This document shows positions 49,673-64,000 of a stretch of 64,000 nucleotides of DNA, piece by piece. Made by a program: the position numbers and the translations under genes. Numbering within the stretch: position 1 is the first letter of the stretch; every line of letters starts with the position of its first letter. Source of the DNA: Methanolobus sediminis (lineage in GTDB: Archaea > Halobacteriota > Methanosarcinia > Methanosarcinales > Methanosarcinaceae); contig NZ_CP133592.1 in NCBI RefSeq assembly GCF_031312595.1, positions 2,294,001-2,358,000 on the forward strand, read 5' to 3'. The notes beneath the pieces were generated by a model. The model had not been told where the DNA came from and did no database searches. It saw only the letters and a program-made list of their open reading frames with translations.

Positions 49673-49745
49673 GCCGCAATAACTCAGTTGGTAGAGTGTC
49701 TGGCTGTTAACCAGAATGTCACAGGTTCGAGCCCTGTTTGCGGCG
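49673..49745 (+). tRNA. tRNA-Asn (GTT)
   Basis: The 73-base gene folds as a cloverleaf. The acceptor arm GCCGCAA pairs with TTGCGGC, the anticodon loop reads CTGTTAA (anticodon GTT) and the T arm is ACAGGTTCGAGCCCTGT. Discriminator base G. A TATA-like TTTAAATA lies about 50 bp upstream and probably serves both tRNAs. Confidence 0.93.
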
Positions 49746-49765
49746 CTTCAATCTTTTCTCGTATT

Positions 49766-49840
49766 GGGCCTGTAGCTTAGCCAGGTTAGAGCGCTCGGCT
49801 CATAACCGAGCGGTCACCGGTTCGAATCCGGTTAGGCCCA
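49766..49840 (+). tRNA. tRNA-Met (CAT)
   Basis: The 75-base gene has acceptor GGGCCTG/TAGGCCC, anticodon loop CTCATAA (anticodon CAT) and T arm CCGGTTCGAATCCGG, with discriminator A. It is the elongator Met type by form, but a modified-C isoleucine tRNA cannot be excluded. A near-copy of its 3' end with flanking bases occurs at 56,038-56,060. Confidence 0.9.
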
Positions 49841-50022
49841 CTTAAAAACTTATTATAGTCCTATCCTAATTACGTTTTTAGTCTTTATTCTGCTAAATAA
49901 TTAATTCGTTTTTGGTTATTTTGTGTGCAACTCAAAAAGACTAAATCGAAACGCATTTTGATAAGTCAGGCCGGTGCACTGTCTGGATTTATATGCACTG
50001 CCTGATAAGGGTATATTTTATT

Positions 50023-50107
50023 GGCTCTGCAGAAAACCTACCAAATCAACATTATCTGGTAATTTTCGACTATGATTATCTCATATGTTAGAGGATTTCG
50101 ACAGAAC
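50023..50107. mobile_element. Decayed short element with MITE-like ends
   Basis: GGCTCTGCAGAAAACC (from 50023) resembles the MITE end at 29,771. An approximately inverted copy (AGGATTTCGACAGAAC, ending 50107) lies 70 bases on. The pair would bracket about 85 bp. The ends are imperfect and no target duplication is clear. It lies in the leader region of the rRNA operon and may only be chance similarity. Confidence 0.3.
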
Positions 50108-50292
50108 ATTAAAATTAATTTAATCGGTTAGGTTTATGTACTATGTGTGATATGTACAGAATCCCTCTGAGGTGTTTTGGAGGGCTTTCATGTATCTCCT
50201 TTTGGAGATATTTGATGATATCTCCTCAATAAGTGGACATTACATGTGTTCCAAAGGTCCATCCTTTGGCTTCGAACCCCGTGTTCGAAAGC

Positions 50293-50330
50293 CTTATATA
50301 CGATGGTAACCTTTGAAGGAGTCCGCGCAA
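50293..50330 (+). promoter_or_regulatory. rRNA operon promoter (TATA box)
   Basis: CTTATATA at 50293-50300 lies 260 bp before the 16S gene and has the form of a strong archaeal TATA box, with a purine-rich stretch (GTTCGAAAG) just upstream as a possible BRE. Transcription would begin around 50,325. The leader then runs through the 16S processing stem. Confidence 0.55.
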
Positions 50331-50416
50331 ATCGCGCGAAAACACTTACAATCACCGCCTTACAAGTGGAGACTGAAGTTTTTTCAGTCTGACGTTGGAT
50401 TTGGCAGTTCGGTTAA

Positions 50417-52079
<1,663 letters not shown>

Positions 52080-52137
52080 ATCGAAAGACTGTCAGATTCA
52101 AGAAAAAAAGGCAAGATTCAATAAGTGAATCTTCTAT

Positions 52138-52210
52138 GGGCTTGTAGATCAGTTGGAAGATCGTCGCCTTTGCAAGGCGAAGGCCCAGGGTTCGAATCCC
52201 TGCAAGTCCA
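52138..52210 (+). tRNA. tRNA-Ala (TGC) in the 16S-23S spacer
   Basis: The acceptor GGGCTTG/CAAGTCC, the anticodon loop TTTGCAA (anticodon TGC) and the T arm CAGGGTTCGAATCCCTG give a clean cloverleaf with discriminator A. It lies between 16S and 23S, the common euryarchaeal arrangement. Confidence 0.93.
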
Positions 52211-52337
52211 TTATTAGTGCACCTACAGAGTAACGTCTGTGGGGAAGGATGAAGCGGCTGAAGCAACAACAGCTGCAATGAAATCGTGTATATGCATGCA
52301 TATATCAGACGCTCACTGGACAAAGTGAGATGGACTC

Positions 52338-55240
<2,903 letters not shown>

Positions 55241-55354
55241 AATCCGTGCCTGTCCGTCTTGCTTTGTCCAGGCGAAATCTGATATGTGTGTGAGAGTATA
55301 CACGGTTTTTTGATAAAGTATTTATACAATGGTTCCATCCATGTATCGCTCATT

Positions 55355-55426
55355 GCCAAGATGGCGGAGCGGCTACGCAATCGCCTGCAGAGCGATTCCA
55401 TTCCGGTTCGAATCCGGATCTTGGCT
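55355..55426 (+). tRNA. tRNA-Cys (GCA) between 23S and 5S
   Basis: The 72-base gene has acceptor GCCAAGA/TCTTGGC, anticodon loop CTGCAGA (anticodon GCA) and T arm CCGGTTCGAATCCGG. Discriminator T fits tRNA-Cys. It lies in the rRNA operon distal part, a placement seen in many euryarchaea. Confidence 0.93.
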
Positions 55427-55451
55427 TTAACTTTATCGTTCATCGTGAGTG

Positions 55452-55576
55452 AGTTTGGCGGCCATAGCGGCGGGGTAATTCCTGTACCCATCCCGAACAC
55501 AGAAGATAAGCCCGCCAGCGTTCCTTATTGTACTGAAGTATGAGAGTCTTCGGGAACTCTGGATCGCTGCCAACTC
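55452..55576 (+). rRNA. 5S ribosomal RNA
   Basis: The region GAGTTTGGCGGCCATAGCGG through GGATCGCTGCCAACTC has the 5S helix I pairing (AGTTTGGCGGCC against GCTGCCAACT) and the conserved CCCATCCCGAACAC loop B sequence. It ends the rRNA operon and is followed by T-rich sequence (CTATTTTTC) that can terminate transcription. The limits are approximate. Confidence 0.9.
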
Positions 55577-57728: not shown

Positions 57729-60281
57729 ATGACACAACTCGATGTGAATTCGGAAATTGCAAAAGTCGTTAATGACAGTCCCGTAACAATTTTCATATGG
57801 AAGCCAGAAGAAAGGTGGCCAGTAGAATTTGTTTCAGAGAATGTCAAACAGTTTGGTTATTCATCTGAAGAGTTTCTTTCAGGCAGATTAAAGTATGAAG
57901 ATATAATCCATCCTGATGACATTGAACGTGTACACAGAGAGGTTACTGAATACTCTGAGACATGTGTTGATAATTTTGTTCAGGAATATAGAATATTGAC
58001 GCCATCCGGTGAAACGCGGTATGTTGACGACAGGACTATTATTCGGAGGGATGAGAGTGGTAATATTCAGTATTATGAAGGTATTATACTTGATATAAGC
58101 CAGCGAAAACTCTCTGAAAAAATAATAGATTGCCGCAATCAGATTCTTGAGGGCCTGGCGTCGGGTGAAACTCTTAATGAGATTCTTACGCGTCTGGTGA
58201 GATCAACTAAAAGACTTATACCGGAAGCAATCAGTATTGTCATGTTACTGGATGAGGAAAAGAAACATCTGGTCCATGCTATTTCTCTTCATCTTCCGGA
58301 TTTTTACAAAAAAGCTATCGAAGGACTGCCCATAGGTGAAGGTATAGGCTCCTGTTCAACTGCTGTTTACACCGGGAAAAGGGTTGTTGTAGAGGACATA
58401 ATGGAGCATCCATACTGGGACAATCTCAGGGAAGTTGCAGTCCAGGCAGGCCTTAGGGCTAGTTGTTGCGAACCCATTAGAAGTTCGAATAATGAGATAT
58501 TTGGAACTTTTGGAATCTACTTCCGTGAACCACACACGCCTACAAAAGAAGAAATTGATATCCTAAAAGCAAACGCCAATCTCGCAGCTATTGCAATAAG
58601 CAAAAAGAGAGTATTGGATAATGCTATTGAATCGGAACAAAAGCTTAAGATCATTCTCAACAATGTGAACGATCAGATCTATATAAGTGAACTTGACGGG
58701 AAAACACTTGCTGTTAACCAGGCTGTAGTAGATACATTGGGTTACAGCAGGAACGAGATGTTAAATTCCTATCCTATCGACATAATTCCAGCAAAAGATG
58801 TGCGTCAGGTATCAAAACTTATGAAGAAGATCGAAAAGGATGGAAGGGCGGTATATGAGACCGAGGCTATACACAAGGATGGCAGGAGAATACCGCTGGA
58901 AGTGAGTGCTCGATTCATAATATATGATGGGAAGAAAACCATCCTGTCAGTTGCCAGAGACATTACTGAGCGCAAAGGAGCCGAAAGAAAGCGCCGGCTT
59001 GAAGAGGAAAGGCTTGAAGCGCTTGTTAAACTAAATAGAATGACAGGTGCATCATTAAGTGAGATCACCGATTTTGCAAGGGAAGAAGCTGTAAGGCTTA
59101 CTGAAAGTACGCTTGGATACCTTGCGTTCATGAATGCAGATGAAACAGCTCTTATTATGCATTCCTGGTCAAAAAGTGCTATGAATGAATGTGGTATCAA
59201 AGACAAACGTTTCGTGTATCCCATAAAGACCACTGGGTTATGGGGTGAAGCAATAAGGCAGCGCAGACCTATAATCACAAATGATTACTCTCATCCAAGT
59301 CCTATGAAAAAGGGATACCCAGAGGACCATGTGGAACTTACCAGACATATGAATATTCCGATATTTGATGGTGACCACATAGTTGCCGTTGCAGGTGTTG
59401 GCAATAAAACGGAAGATTATGATGAATCGGATGTACGCCAGCTTACCTTATTGATGCAGGGCATGTGGAGTCTCATTCAAAGAAAACAAATAGAAGATGC
59501 CTTAAAACAATATTCTGATGAACTAAAGATGGCAAATGAGGAACTAAGGTCCATCAACAGGATGAAGACCGAGTTCATTACAGAAAGGCTGGAAACTGTA
59601 TATGGCTATGGACACTCAGAGTGCGGTATCTTTGATGATGAGATGGTCATGGCTATTGATGATCAGCAGGCAAAAGCTATCGATTCCGTATTACTCAACT
59701 CAGAAAGGTTGAAACGTATGGTAAATTCACTTCTGTATATGAGTCAGGAGCAGGCTGGAAAGATCGTATATACTTTTTCCAGTGCATATATGGATAAACT
59801 AATATCTGAAGCCTTGATGAATCTTATATTACTAATAGATGAGAAAGGAATTAATTTAGAAATTAATGTACCTGAGGGATTACCGGCAATAAGATCTGAT
59901 AAGGACAAACTGACTCAAACATTGATAATCCTTATAGACAATGCTATCAAATTCACTCCCGAAGGCGGAAGAATAAACATAGATCTAAGTGAAGAAAGTA
60001 GTCATCTGCACTTGAAGATATCTGATACGGGGCCAGGTATACAGAAAGATCTTATTCCGCATATCTTCCAGAAATTCTACCAGATGGAGGACTCAATGAG
60101 TCGAATGTATCAGGGACTTGAATCAGGTCTGTACATCTGCAAGGACATAATCCTTGAACATAAAGGCGAGATATGGATCGAAAGCGAAAAAGGTAAAGGA
60201 ACAACATTCCACATAAGACTTCCAATAGAGGTTGTGGAAGAAGATTCCACGCAAAATATCAAAAGTGAGATGATGGCATGA
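57729..60281 (+). CDS. MsmS-like multi-sensor histidine-kinase-type protein, degenerate H-box
   Basis: The 850-aa product reads PAS (about 10-125), GAF (133-293), PAS (300-415), GAF (430-588), a coiled-coil linker and a kinase region (612-835). The second GAF holds a cysteine (C488 in NECGIKD) in the region where MsmS of Methanosarcina acetivorans attaches haem through a cysteine. The ATPase half has IDNAIKFTPEGG (N box), SDTGPGI (G1) and ESGLYICKD (G2, altered). The phosphoacceptor box is missing: MKTEFITERLETVYGYGHSE replaces the usual F-x-x-x-x-S-H-E-L-R-T-P-L. It overlaps the Msr-type gene by ATGA and precedes an Mts-type gene, the msmS-msr-mts arrangement. It probably senses redox or haem state. 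Confidence 0.8.
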   Translation: MTQLDVNSEIAKVVNDSPVTIFIWKPEERWPVEFVSENVKQFGYSSEEFLSGRLKYEDIIHPDDIERVHREVTEYSETCVDNFVQEYRILTPSGETRYVDDRTIIRRDESGNIQYYEGIILDISQRKLSEKIIDCRNQILEGLASGETLNEILTRLVRSTKRLIPEAISIVMLLDEEKKHLVHAISLHLPDFYKKAIEGLPIGEGIGSCSTAVYTGKRVVVEDIMEHPYWDNLREVAVQAGLRASCCEPIRSSNNEIFGTFGIYFREPHTPTKEEIDILKANANLAAIAISKKRVLDNAIESEQKLKIILNNVNDQIYISELDGKTLAVNQAVVDTLGYSRNEMLNSYPIDIIPAKDVRQVSKLMKKIEKDGRAVYETEAIHKDGRRIPLEVSARFIIYDGKKTILSVARDITERKGAERKRRLEEERLEALVKLNRMTGASLSEITDFAREEAVRLTESTLGYLAFMNADETALIMHSWSKSAMNECGIKDKRFVYPIKTTGLWGEAIRQRRPIITNDYSHPSPMKKGYPEDHVELTRHMNIPIFDGDHIVAVAGVGNKTEDYDESDVRQLTLLMQGMWSLIQRKQIEDALKQYSDELKMANEELRSINRMKTEFITERLETVYGYGHSECGIFDDEMVMAIDDQQAKAIDSVLLNSERLKRMVNSLLYMSQEQAGKIVYTFSSAYMDKLISEALMNLILLIDEKGINLEINVPEGLPAIRSDKDKLTQTLIILIDNAIKFTPEGGRINIDLSEESSHLHLKISDTGPGIQKDLIPHIFQKFYQMEDSMSRMYQGLESGLYICKDIILEHKGEIWIESEKGKGTTFHIRLPIEVVEEDSTQNIKSEMMA

Positions 60282-61063
60282 AATTGGCTTTGTTAGGTAC
60301 TCTTTTTCTCTCAGACAAAAGAAAAGATCTTCTCCTTTTGCTGATAGAAAGACCTATGAATATCGATGAGATCAAAAGTACACTTAATGTCACGTCCAGT
60401 GCTATGATGACCCAGATAAAGATCCTCATTGATCAGGGTATAATACTTTATGAGGATGATCAGTACCAGCTTTCCAGTTTTGGTGAAGTTATTGTAAAGA
60501 AAATGGTCCCTCTGTTAAACACCTTAATGGTTTTTGAAGACAATAAACAATACTGGGAAAATCATAGGGTAAAGGGTATTCCGGCACATCTTCTTGAGAG
60601 CATAGAAGAACTGGGTTCCTGTGAACTTGTTGAGCCGGAACTCAATCGTATGTATGAATTGCCGAAGAAGTTCACCGATAATCTGATACAGTCAAAATAT
60701 ATCATGGAAATCTCTTCTTCATTCAGCCCTGCTTATCCCTATAAATACATTGAACTTGCCAGGAAAGGCGTCCGGATCTCACTCATAATAACAGAGTCTG
60801 TATTTGAAAGACTTGAAACGGAGTATTTTGAACAATTGAAGGATTATCTCGGGATGGAAAATACGGAACTCTTTGTATGTAAAGAGGATATTGGTTTTGC
60901 GTCAAGTGTAGTAACAGACAGATTTCTTTCATTGACACTGTTCTATAAGAACGGGATGTTCCACAATCATTCTATGATGAGCTTTGAAACAGATGCATTG
61001 AAGTGGGGAGAAGATATGTATCAGTTTTTCAGGCAGACTGCACAAGAAGTGACTGGTCTCTAG
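60278..61063 (+). CDS. Msr-type transcriptional regulator (FilR1/DUF1724 family)
   Basis: The 261-aa product has an N-terminal winged helix (about 1-75: RKDLLLLLIERPMNIDEIKS followed by SSAMMTQIKILIDQGIILY) and the C-terminal domain of methanogen regulators of the Msr/FilR1 (DUF1724) type (about 100-255; SKYIMEISSSFSPAYPYK, FYKNGMFHNHSMMSFE). In Methanosarcina acetivorans such regulators activate genes for methanol and methyl-sulfide methyltransferases. Its ATG overlaps the kinase stop (ATGA), and the mts gene starts 346 bp on, so it very likely controls that gene. Confidence 0.85.
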   Translation: MKLALLGTLFLSDKRKDLLLLLIERPMNIDEIKSTLNVTSSAMMTQIKILIDQGIILYEDDQYQLSSFGEVIVKKMVPLLNTLMVFEDNKQYWENHRVKGIPAHLLESIEELGSCELVEPELNRMYELPKKFTDNLIQSKYIMEISSSFSPAYPYKYIELARKGVRISLIITESVFERLETEYFEQLKDYLGMENTELFVCKEDIGFASSVVTDRFLSLTLFYKNGMFHNHSMMSFETDALKWGEDMYQFFRQTAQEVTGL

Positions 61064-61167
61064 ATTCTTTTTTCATGTAGGGGATGTTTCCCCTGATTAT
61101 ATTTTACTTGTTTTATCCTGAAGTCTTTGAATGGATATATTCTATTTTTGCGTTCGTCAGATCAAAG

Positions 61168-61345
61168 CCATTAATTTGATTAAAACCATTAATCTAATTG
61201 TTGTTTATTTCAATGGTTAACGGCGTTAATTCTAAGGACTTCATTCATTGGATTATGGTCCTGCTTAAAATGATGCCCAGTTCATAATATTAACATCATT
61301 AATAAATTACCGGCGGTTATGATATATATCGAAAGTGAAATACTG
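61168..61345 (+). promoter_or_regulatory. Candidate promoter and operator of the mts gene
   Basis: The 346-bp gap before the mts gene has two 14-bp direct repeats, CCATTAATTTGATT (61168-61181) and CCATTAATCTAATT (61186-61199), spaced 18 bp, and a palindrome TTAACGGCGTTAA (61217-61229). A TATA-like GATATATATC at 61321-61330 would start a message about 60 bases upstream of the ATG. GGAGG lies at 61,399-61,403. The repeats are plausible binding sites for the Msr-type regulator. No gene is seen in this gap. Confidence 0.5.
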
Positions 61346-61409
61346 TTCTTTGTTAACAGTGAGAAATGAAGGTTCACTGTGGAAACGACCTAAATTTTGG
61401 AGGTAAATT

Positions 61410-63314
61410 ATGAAGACAGCAATTCTGAACCAATTAGCGGAAGCTGTGGTCGAAGGTGACGACGACCTGGCAGAAGAACTTGCACAAAAGGCCCTTGATG
61501 AAGGTGTTGATCCTTATGAGGCAATTGTGGAAGGGCTTGCAAAAGGAATGATCATTGTAAGTGACAAGTATGAAAAGGGTGAAGCCTTTGTACCACACCT
61601 GCTCATCGCGTCCAGTGCCATGTATGCAGGTATGGACCTCCTTACTCCTCATATGAAAGTAGAGGGCAACGGAAAACGTTCCGTTGGTGTAATAGGAACC
61701 ATCGAGGGAGATGTACACGACATCGGAAAGAACCTTGTAAAAACAATGCTCTCTGCATCCGGCTTCGATATGGTCGACCTGGGGCACGATGTACCGGTAG
61801 AGAAATTCGTAGAAGTGGCTAAAGAGAAAAAAGCAGACCTTGTTTCCATGAGTGCCTTGATGACAACTACCATGACCAACATGGAAAAAGTAATTGAGAT
61901 GCTGCAGGAAGAAGGTGCCAGAGATTCTCTCATAGTCATGATAGGAGGAGCACCTGTTTCCCCTGAATTCGCAGAACAGATTGGTGCGGACTCAACACAT
62001 CCTGATTCCATGACAGCTACTGAATGGGCAAAGGATGCAGTAAGCAAACTTGCTCCTGCTGAGCAGAGATGGAGCGAGGAGAAGATCTCACTTGGTAAGG
62101 TCAAGTACAGAGAGATCCTTGCTAAGAAGAAGGTCAAAGGAAAGACTGATGTTGGTCTGGAAACTGCAAAGCAGATCATTGCAGACTTCGAGAGTGTAGC
62201 TGTCAAGACGAAAGAAGAAATGACCCACATGGACAGGACACTGGCAGCAATGGGCGACAAGAAGGTTGACAGGTTGCCTGTATATCCTCTTGCTTGCGGT
62301 GTTTTGAGGAAATTTGCTGATGTCAACTACAAGCAGTATGCCACTGACATCAATGCTTTTGTTGAAAGCGCTTACCTTGGATCCAAATATCTGGACACTG
62401 ACATGTTCGTGGGACTCATTGACCTTTCTGCAACATCATCAGACTTCGGATGTAAGATCAAGTACCCTGAAGATGACACACCTTCATCCGAAGGACACCT
62501 TGAGGCATACGAGCAGATAGAAGTCCCTGAGGTAAAGGAAGGTACCCGTGCCTATGAGCTTATTATGGCTTCCAAGGCAGCTACTGAGAAACTTAACAAG
62601 GAACTCAACACTCCATTTGTCGGATTCCACGAAGGTCCTCTTCTTACCCTTACTCAGCTCATGGGTGCAGACCGTGTCCTGATGGATATGAAGACCCATC
62701 CTGATGTAGTACTTGAGGCAGTCCAGAAATGTACGGATTACATCTGCCAGGTATCTGAACTCTTCTTTGAAGAAAGTGCCTGTAATGCGCTGTGTATCGA
62801 TAACCTCTGGTCCAACAATGTGATCATGAGTGAGGAGGACTACTGGAAGTTCGACGGTAAGTTCGTATACGACCAGCACCTGCCGATCTTCAAAAAATAC
62901 GACCAGCCTTACATAATACACAACTGTGCAGATGCAGTACACTTTGACACCCAGATCAGCAAATTCGGTACTCAGTTGTACAGCTACGCATACTATCCAA
63001 AGCTCAGGGGCAAGGGTTCACAGAATTATGCAGATCTTATTCCAAAGTACGGTCATGAATGTTGTATGATGGGAGAGGTCAATCCTGTAGAGTTCATGGA
63101 TAATACTCCTGCAGGTGTCCAGAAGGTAAAGGATGATACCAGGGAACTGCTTCAGGGCGTACTTCCTGTGCTCAAGGAGAGCGGACTGCAATCCAAGTAT
63201 GTAATGGCATCTGGTTGTGAGATCCCACCAGGAGGTCCTCTTACGACCGTGAAGGCAATGGTTGACACAGTGAAGGAACTGGGTCCGGACCTTCAGAAAC
63301 AGATATTCGGATAA
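61410..63314 (+). CDS. Mts-type corrinoid/methyltransferase fusion protein
   Basis: The 634-aa product joins two domains. Residues 1-213 are a MtaC/MtbC-type corrinoid protein with DVHDIGK (101-107; H103 is the lower cobalt ligand), SMSALMT and VMIGGAPVS. Residues about 275-634 are a UroD-type methyltransferase of the MtaA/MtbA/MtsA class with zinc ligands in HNC (H504, C506) and SGC (C603). This is the domain order of MtsD, MtsF and MtsH of Methanosarcina acetivorans, which carry methyl groups between methyl sulfides and coenzyme M. Such a single chain can bind the methyl on cobalt and pass it to CoM. The exact paralogue cannot be fixed. It is followed by a terminator and a hydantoinase-A-like gene. 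Confidence 0.88.
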   Translation: MKTAILNQLAEAVVEGDDDLAEELAQKALDEGVDPYEAIVEGLAKGMIIVSDKYEKGEAFVPHLLIASSAMYAGMDLLTPHMKVEGNGKRSVGVIGTIEGDVHDIGKNLVKTMLSASGFDMVDLGHDVPVEKFVEVAKEKKADLVSMSALMTTTMTNMEKVIEMLQEEGARDSLIVMIGGAPVSPEFAEQIGADSTHPDSMTATEWAKDAVSKLAPAEQRWSEEKISLGKVKYREILAKKKVKGKTDVGLETAKQIIADFESVAVKTKEEMTHMDRTLAAMGDKKVDRLPVYPLACGVLRKFADVNYKQYATDINAFVESAYLGSKYLDTDMFVGLIDLSATSSDFGCKIKYPEDDTPSSEGHLEAYEQIEVPEVKEGTRAYELIMASKAATEKLNKELNTPFVGFHEGPLLTLTQLMGADRVLMDMKTHPDVVLEAVQKCTDYICQVSELFFEESACNALCIDNLWSNNVIMSEEDYWKFDGKFVYDQHLPIFKKYDQPYIIHNCADAVHFDTQISKFGTQLYSYAYYPKLRGKGSQNYADLIPKYGHECCMMGEVNPVEFMDNTPAGVQKVKDDTRELLQGVLPVLKESGLQSKYVMASGCEIPPGGPLTTVKAMVDTVKELGPDLQKQIFG

Positions 63315-63494: not shown

Positions 63495-64000
63495 ATGAAT
63501 CTCGGGCTTGGCATAGACACTGGCGGCACATATACGGATGCCGTAATAATGGATCTTGAAGATGGATCGATAATAGATTCAAACAAATCGCTTACTACTT
63601 ACCCTGATCTGATCAAGGGCATAGTAAATTCAATTGATGGTCTCAAAGCCGAATATCTTCCTAATGTAAGATTTACTTCAGTATCCACCACACTTGCCAC
63701 CAACACCACACTGGAGGGCAAAGGGTATCCGGCTGGTCTCATACTTATTGGCTATAATATATCCAGGAAGATTCCAACAGACCATATTCTTTCCATAGAA
63801 GGCAGGCATGATGCCGATGGAAATGAAGTGGAACCTCTTGGAGACCTAAAAGATGTAAAGGAATTTGTAACAAAGAACCAGCATAAGGTCTCTTCATTTG
63901 CTATATCATCGTATTTTGGAGTACGCAACCCTGAACATGAACTCACTATAAAGGAGATCATTCAGGATATGACAGACCTTCCGGTAGTCTGCGGACATGA
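63495..64000 (+). CDS. Hydantoinase/oxoprolinase A-like protein, partial
   Basis: The frame starts at ATG 63495 (AAAAGGTGAT upstream) and runs off the window end after 168 codons. The visible part begins LGLGIDTGGTYTDAVIMDLE, the ATP-binding N-terminal motif of the hydantoinase A/5-oxoprolinase family. It continues with STTLATNTTLEGKGYPAGLI, typical of that domain. Relatives of this fold are often found near corrinoid methyltransferases in methanogens. A role in reactivating the corrinoid or in hydrolysis of an N-methyl compound is possible, but unproved. Confidence 0.75.
   Translation, partial: MNLGLGIDTGGTYTDAVIMDLEDGSIIDSNKSLTTYPDLIKGIVNSIDGLKAEYLPNVRFTSVSTTLATNTTLEGKGYPAGLILIGYNISRKIPTDHILSIEGRHDADGNEVEPLGDLKDVKEFVTKNQHKVSSFAISSYFGVRNPEHELTIKEIIQDMTDLPVVCGH

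Follow-up and report, generated by a model that had tools for sequence, protein, structure and literature searches.

The closest described relatives of the locus analysed here are three loci of Methanosarcina acetivorans, namely rdmS-msrF-mtsD (MA0863, MA0862, MA0859), msmS-msrG-mtsH (MA4561, MA4560, MA4558) and msrC-mtsF (MA4383, MA4384), each with a fused corrinoid protein/methyltransferase. The MtsAB system of Methanosarcina barkeri likewise acts on methyl sulfides with a corrinoid protein and a URO-D methyltransferase, although as two proteins instead of one fusion. MtsD of M. acetivorans prefers dimethyl sulfide (DMS; PMC7374477) and is required for growth on this substrate (PMC7374477, PMC10762971). 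The sensor RdmS carries covalent heme (PMC7542351), and kinases of its class, MA_type 2, reportedly bind and hydrolyse ATP without being autokinases (PMC11784639).

Gene content of the Methanolobus cassette

We analysed a window of 64,000 nucleotides from Methanolobus sediminis, in which an earlier note had described a sensor kinase, a regulator overlapping it by ATGA, a 346-bp gap with repeats and a corrinoid-UroD fusion as one methyl-sulfide module. Open reading frames and Pfam domains bear out each of these elements, in this order on the + strand:

57729..60281, + strand: sensor kinase, RdmS/MsmS type, 850 aa; PAS-GAF-PAS-GAF-HATPase (Pfam; tree)
60278..61063, + strand: Msr-type regulator, 261 aa; winged helix and FilR1_middle (Pfam, 133 bits for the latter; tree); ATGA overlap with the kinase
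61064-61409: intergenic gap between regulator and fusion, exactly 346 bp, containing repeats
61410..63314, + strand: MtsD-type fused corrinoid protein/methyltransferase, 634 aa (Pfam; tree; identity to MtsD)
63495..64000, + strand: start of an ASKHA gene (hydantoinase/oxoprolinase family), cut by the window end and continuing in L009 to 3429
L009:3426-5033: group II chaperonin paralogue, directly behind the ASKHA gene

The gene set thus runs past the window end and beyond the three genes first described, as a nine-gene cassette in which the fusion is followed by the hydantoinase/oxoprolinase-family ASKHA gene, the group II chaperonin, a URO-D protein, RamA, DUF6951 and an MtaA-like methyltransferase. 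Its host is a Methanolobus genome of 2.8 Mb, and the fusion of M. bombayensis is 96% identical to that of the window. A complete rRNA operon with tRNA-Asn, tRNA-Met, tRNA-Ala and tRNA-Cys lies just upstream of the cassette (window positions 49673-55575).

Gene order and direction are those of rdmS-msrF-mtsD, with hydantoinase-family and chaperonin genes downstream and a candidate operator with 18-bp spacing in both. The two loci differ in that the window kinase has neither the extra N-terminal PAS domain nor the pyrrolysine of RdmS, kinase and regulator overlap by 4 bp in place of a 119-nt gap, the gap before mtsD measures 346 bp and not 2.8 kb, and RamA, DUF6951 and MtaA-like genes stand in the same run. 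The msmS-msrG-mtsH locus shares the kinase and regulator families and the conserved heme residues Cys656/His702, but its fusion belongs to another clade, a URO-D gene separates regulator and fusion, and it has no chaperonin nearby and no dyad array. The msrC-mtsF locus resembles the window in its fused corrinoid protein/methyltransferase and the chaperonin paralogue behind it, but has no kinase beside it and an Msr of another clade in divergent orientation. The earlier note had taken MsmS-MsrG with an mts gene as its model, which was right about the type of the pair; the fusion, however, is of the MtsD type, and the counterpart is rdmS-msrF-mtsD. Under this corrected name, the locus is a real, ordinary orthologue of a known system.

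Relationships of the fusion, kinase and regulator

The fusion combines B12-binding_2, B12-binding and URO-D domains (Pfam; 158 bits for URO-D) in one chain. Read directly, it contains EGDVHDIGK, with the corrinoid-histidine motif DVHDIG, as well as IHNCAD and SGCEIP, with the zinc ligands H-x-C...C; these roles are established for the family. It is the only Mts fusion in the genome, and such fusions occur in 17 of the 27 Methanolobus genomes surveyed. Its identity to the M. acetivorans proteins is 80% for MtsD, 68% for MtsH and 55% for MtsF, the reference being genome G148, which we take to be M. acetivorans C2A and whose three fusions lie at positions fitting mtsD, mtsF and mtsH. A tree of 77 fusions, the check that had been proposed for the module, places the window protein within the Mts clade and, inside it, in the MtsD clade (SH-aLRT 97), apart from MtsH (100) and MtsF (100); judged by sequence, it is an orthologue of MtsD and not of MtsH. 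With a kinase/Msr pair of the MsmS/RdmS-Msr type beside it, the reading of the three genes as one methyl-sulfide module stands. From this orthology, growth of M. sediminis on DMS may fairly be inferred, and the cassette probably senses and uses the compound.

In the kinase tree, RdmS and MsmS are sisters within Methanosarcina (100/100) and the window kinase branches outside both, which makes it a co-orthologue equally related to the two. The regulators branch in a parallel way in the Msr tree, with MsrF and MsrG as sister paralogues (support 85 for the node). Because the two trees agree and the window pair is a pre-duplication co-orthologue, the two genes were duplicated as a pair, and the fact that they travel and duplicate together supports a functional link. 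The window kinase resembles MA_type 2 kinases (MsmS/RdmS) in having PAS and GAF sensor domains and an HATPase domain but no H-box. An H-box was absent from the alignment of all 49 kinase orthologues, Pfam gave no HisKA match in the window kinase, and no receiver (REC) domain was found by Pfam in the regulator, so that both marks of a classical two-component system, a phospho-accepting His in the kinase and REC in the partner, are missing. The heme attachment/ligand residues of MsmS (Cys656/His702) are invariant across the orthologues:

59190..59192, + strand: Cys488 codon, in the second GAF, aligned with MsmS Cys656; invariant in 49/49 orthologues
59328..59330, + strand: His534 codon, in the second GAF, aligned with MsmS His702; invariant in 49/49 orthologues
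59565..59600, + strand: place of the missing H-box, KTEFITERLETV; conserved His absent (alignment; Pfam without HisKA)

The 4-bp ATGA overlap is present at 7 of the 12 loci in the window's Methanolobus clade and also in the g6 genomes; elsewhere the genes are separated by up to 298 nt, with 119 nt between RdmS and MsrF and 22 nt between MsmS and MsrG in M. acetivorans. Since the overlap varies among loci, it is not a general requirement but a lineage-level trait. The suggestion that tighter coupling implies direct signal transfer therefore survives in its first half, the overlap being indeed tighter than in M. acetivorans, but not in its second, given its patchy occurrence and the missing H-box and REC domain. 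A second Methanolobus group (L014, L016, L027, L033; ~2.9-6.2 kb) carries one more Msr gene and a RamA gene upstream of the kinase.

Dyads in the gap upstream of mtsD

The repeats in the 346-bp gap resolve into the following elements:

61160..61176, + strand: dyad 1, candidate Msr operator, GATCAAAGCCATTAATT
61178..61194, + strand: dyad 2, perfect GATTAA-N5-TTAATC, 18 bp from dyad 1
61215..61231, + strand: dyad 3, GGTTAACGGCGTTAATT
61288..61304, + strand: dyad 4, TATTAACATCATTAATA, directly upstream of the TATA-like stretch
61317..61329, + strand: putative TATA-box-like element, TTATGATATATAT, kept in Methanolobus (footprint alignment)
61356..61380, + strand: inverted repeat ACAGTGA-loop-TCACTGT ahead of the ribosome-binding site of mtsD; its arms vary in a compensatory manner in L028

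In an alignment of this gap from 12 Methanolobus loci, the conserved parts were the tandem GATTAAAGCCATTAAT copies 18 bp apart, two more ATTAA-N5-TTAAT dyads, the TATA-like stretch and the inverted repeat before the ribosome-binding site. This last repeat may act as an RNA hairpin or as a site for a protein; Rfam matched no known RNA within the mtsD leader. The window contains the 35-bp tandem dyad only once (0 expected from 100 shuffles), and a 25-mer taken from it has a single occurrence in the 2.8-Mb genome even when up to 3 mismatches are allowed; these counts show that the gap repeats are not due to chance. Because the consensus is AT-rich and single dyads are not rare (7.4 expected in the window), we give weight only to the clustering of dyads into an array and to the conservation of that array.

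We counted matches to the consensus GATTAA-N5-TTAATC, derived from Methanolobus, at a threshold of at least 10 of 12 positions within 500 bp upstream of genes. The array precedes 45 of the 48 mtsD-type genes with an adjacent kinase-Msr pair, as compared with sites upstream of 3/25 mtsF-type genes, 0/2 mtsH genes and 3/98 other cassette genes taken as background; 105 dyads were observed against 6.0 expected. Matches to the consensus also precede mtsD in Methanomethylovorans, Methanococcoides and Methanosarcina, and M. acetivorans mtsD retains the 18-bp spacing, with sites at -314 and -296. Methanococcoides alaskense has two Mts fusions within 20 kb, of which the one with the kinase-Msr pair in front (L023) is preceded by several dyads and the one without it (L022) by no array. 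We propose the array as a candidate binding site of the MsrF-type regulator. At mtsH, which lacks the array even though its regulator MsrG is sister to MsrF, one has to suppose that the operator has diverged.

A chaperonin class that accompanies Mts fusions

The cassette chaperonin belongs to a class of its own, with 43-100% identity inside the class and at most 34% to thermosomes. Members were found in 47 of 112 genomes of the family, spread over ten genera, and all 47 also encode an Mts fusion. Six further genomes have a fusion but not the chaperonin; all are drafts, and in each the contig breaks off at the fusion or its next gene, or immediately after either. Fisher's test of the co-occurrence gives p = 2.5e-25, with an exact probability within genera of ~1e-15.5 that still includes relatedness within genera. 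At mtsD-type loci the chaperonin gene directly follows the ASKHA gene; in the other arrangement it follows mtsF. In M. acetivorans, two copies, beside mtsD and beside mtsF, are each other's most similar sequences and are, going by the match of names, most likely thermosome subunits 4 and 5, to which a review assigns no client (PMC6420498). The five-subunit thermosome set has been described for M. acetivorans only (PMC6420498), whereas the class seen here spans several genera and is tied to Mts fusions. The simplest reading is that the chaperonin would be dedicated to folding or cofactor loading of the fusion.

The ASKHA protein is N-methylhydantoinase- and 5-oxoprolinase-like over ~200 residues and like the acetophenone carboxylase alpha subunit over ~315 residues; its structural model is of moderate quality (pLDDT 69). 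Methanosarcinaceae genomes hold up to 13 copies of such hydantoinase-family proteins, 8 in this one, and a single subclass accompanies Mts. It looks as if these proteins have a general role in the family.

Sense codons at the RdmS pyrrolysine position in Methanolobus

M. acetivorans RdmS has an in-frame TAG at residue 216, a codon that differs in the window:

57981..57983, + strand: CAG (Gln85) in the PAS domain, where Methanosarcina RdmS has TAG (pyrrolysine O216) (orthologue alignment)
Single in-frame TAG at the PAS codon: L064 (M. acetivorans rdmS), L018, L019, L020, L029, L031, L073, L082, L083, L085
Single in-frame TAG at the PAS codon, further loci: L088, L089, L091, L110, L023, L068, L069, L092, L093

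The TAG is no novelty in itself, as the residue has been named O216 (PMC7542351) and a TAG-interrupted histidine-kinase cluster was predicted earlier (PMC3639795); the biochemistry of RdmS was done with an O216K variant (PMC7542351). We found it in 14/14 RdmS genes of Methanosarcina and the related g5 and in 5/5 genes of Methanococcoides and Methanohalophilus, within the motif T/S-O-E/D-Y/H-R. The codon has been retained although fourfold sites in those two groups share on average only 52 and 59% identity, which speaks for selection acting on it. Fission of the gene was rejected as a cause of the TAG, since it would cut the PAS domain, the codon is kept in both groups and the frame is open on both sides. 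The window kinase has CAG where pyrrolysine-type RdmS has an in-frame TAG before E-Y-R; other Methanolobus have CAG or CGG, MsmS has AAG (Lys) and Methanomethylovorans CAT, and the kinase tree requires at least 2 changes at this codon. PylS is still encoded in the M. sediminis genome. A comparison with FixL for the orientation of the pyrrolysine to the PAS pocket was set aside, as HMMER and turn-anchored alignments differ by three residues. According to a report cited in PMC11267899, methylsulfide formation rises in M. acetivorans without pyrrolysine, which would fit a broken RdmS.

Discussion

We consider it likely that the locus is the DMS-utilisation cassette of Methanolobus, orthologous to rdmS-msrF-mtsD of M. 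acetivorans. In this reading, an H-box-less heme-GAF/PAS sensor of the cytoplasm would inform the co-encoded Msr of the redox or methyl-sulfide state by a non-classical route, either protein contact or phosphorylation of some partner. Msr would occupy the dyads of the 346-bp gap and so activate mtsD, probably together with the genes behind it. MtsD would then transfer methyl groups from DMS (and methanethiol) to its own corrinoid domain and on to coenzyme M, RamA would reduce the corrinoid again, and the linked chaperonin and ASKHA protein would most likely aid folding or loading of the fusion.

That the cassette might instead be the MsmS-MsrG-MtsH module is suggested by the pair, which is about as near to MsmS-MsrG as to RdmS-MsrF (53 versus 56% for the kinase, 61% to both regulators). 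We regard this as very improbable, because the fusion is closer to MtsD than to MtsH and groups with MtsD in the tree, mtsH has no dyad array, the hydantoinase-chaperonin order downstream fits the mtsD locus, and MsmS and RdmS split only within Methanosarcina. An intact HATPase domain and two overlapping, co-evolving genes would also suit a classical two-component system in which the kinase autophosphorylates on His and hands the phosphate to Msr. However, with an H-box in 0/49 orthologues and no REC domain in Msr, such phosphotransfer is hardly to be expected, and RdmS showed no specific autophosphorylation, the same being presumed of MsmS (PMC11784639).

Two further alternatives seem doubtful rather than remote. 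The cassette could serve mainly as a redox/methyl-CoM overflow valve that makes methyl sulfides and not for growth on DMS: the sensor is of a redox-responsive type, mtsD of M. acetivorans rises ~100-fold under limiting MCR, and methylsulfide formation there increases on CO, in the absence of HdrABC and when pyrrolysine is missing (PMC11267899). The preference of M. acetivorans MtsD for DMS and its necessity for growth on it (PMC7374477, PMC10762971) make this an unlikely main role, and the two roles are compatible with each other. The dyad array, being AT-rich and having one dyad next to the TATA-like stretch, could likewise have some other function in the promoter, such as recruiting a general factor, in place of being an Msr site; this is improbable given that the array is largely limited to mtsD genes with the pair and that, in M. 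alaskense, it is found where an Msr gene stands in front (L023) but not where none does (L022). The DMS-utilisation cassette, with the array as a candidate Msr site, is the preferred reading. What specialists would find new is the candidate operator, the link to the chaperonin and the distribution of the pyrrolysine swap; the literature searched, largely open-access, describes neither the operator nor the chaperonin link, though priority is not certain.

DMS-dependent methanogenesis is climate-relevant and its control is poorly understood. The comparison yields a concrete candidate operator for the Msr family and offers a likely job for orphan thermosome subunits. We tentatively advance a joint proposal, which we rate as possible but short of probable, that the operon-borne group II chaperonin matures Mts fusions and that the RdmS PAS pyrrolysine is a functional, selected sensing residue, replaced by Gln in Methanolobus and by Lys in MsmS. 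If true, an archaeal CCT-type chaperonin would be dedicated to one catabolic enzyme, and a selected pyrrolysine could explain the greater methyl-sulfide formation of M. acetivorans without pyrrolysine. Since the one sensor occurs in nature both with and without pyrrolysine, a role of pyrrolysine outside methylamine enzymes becomes testable by swaps.
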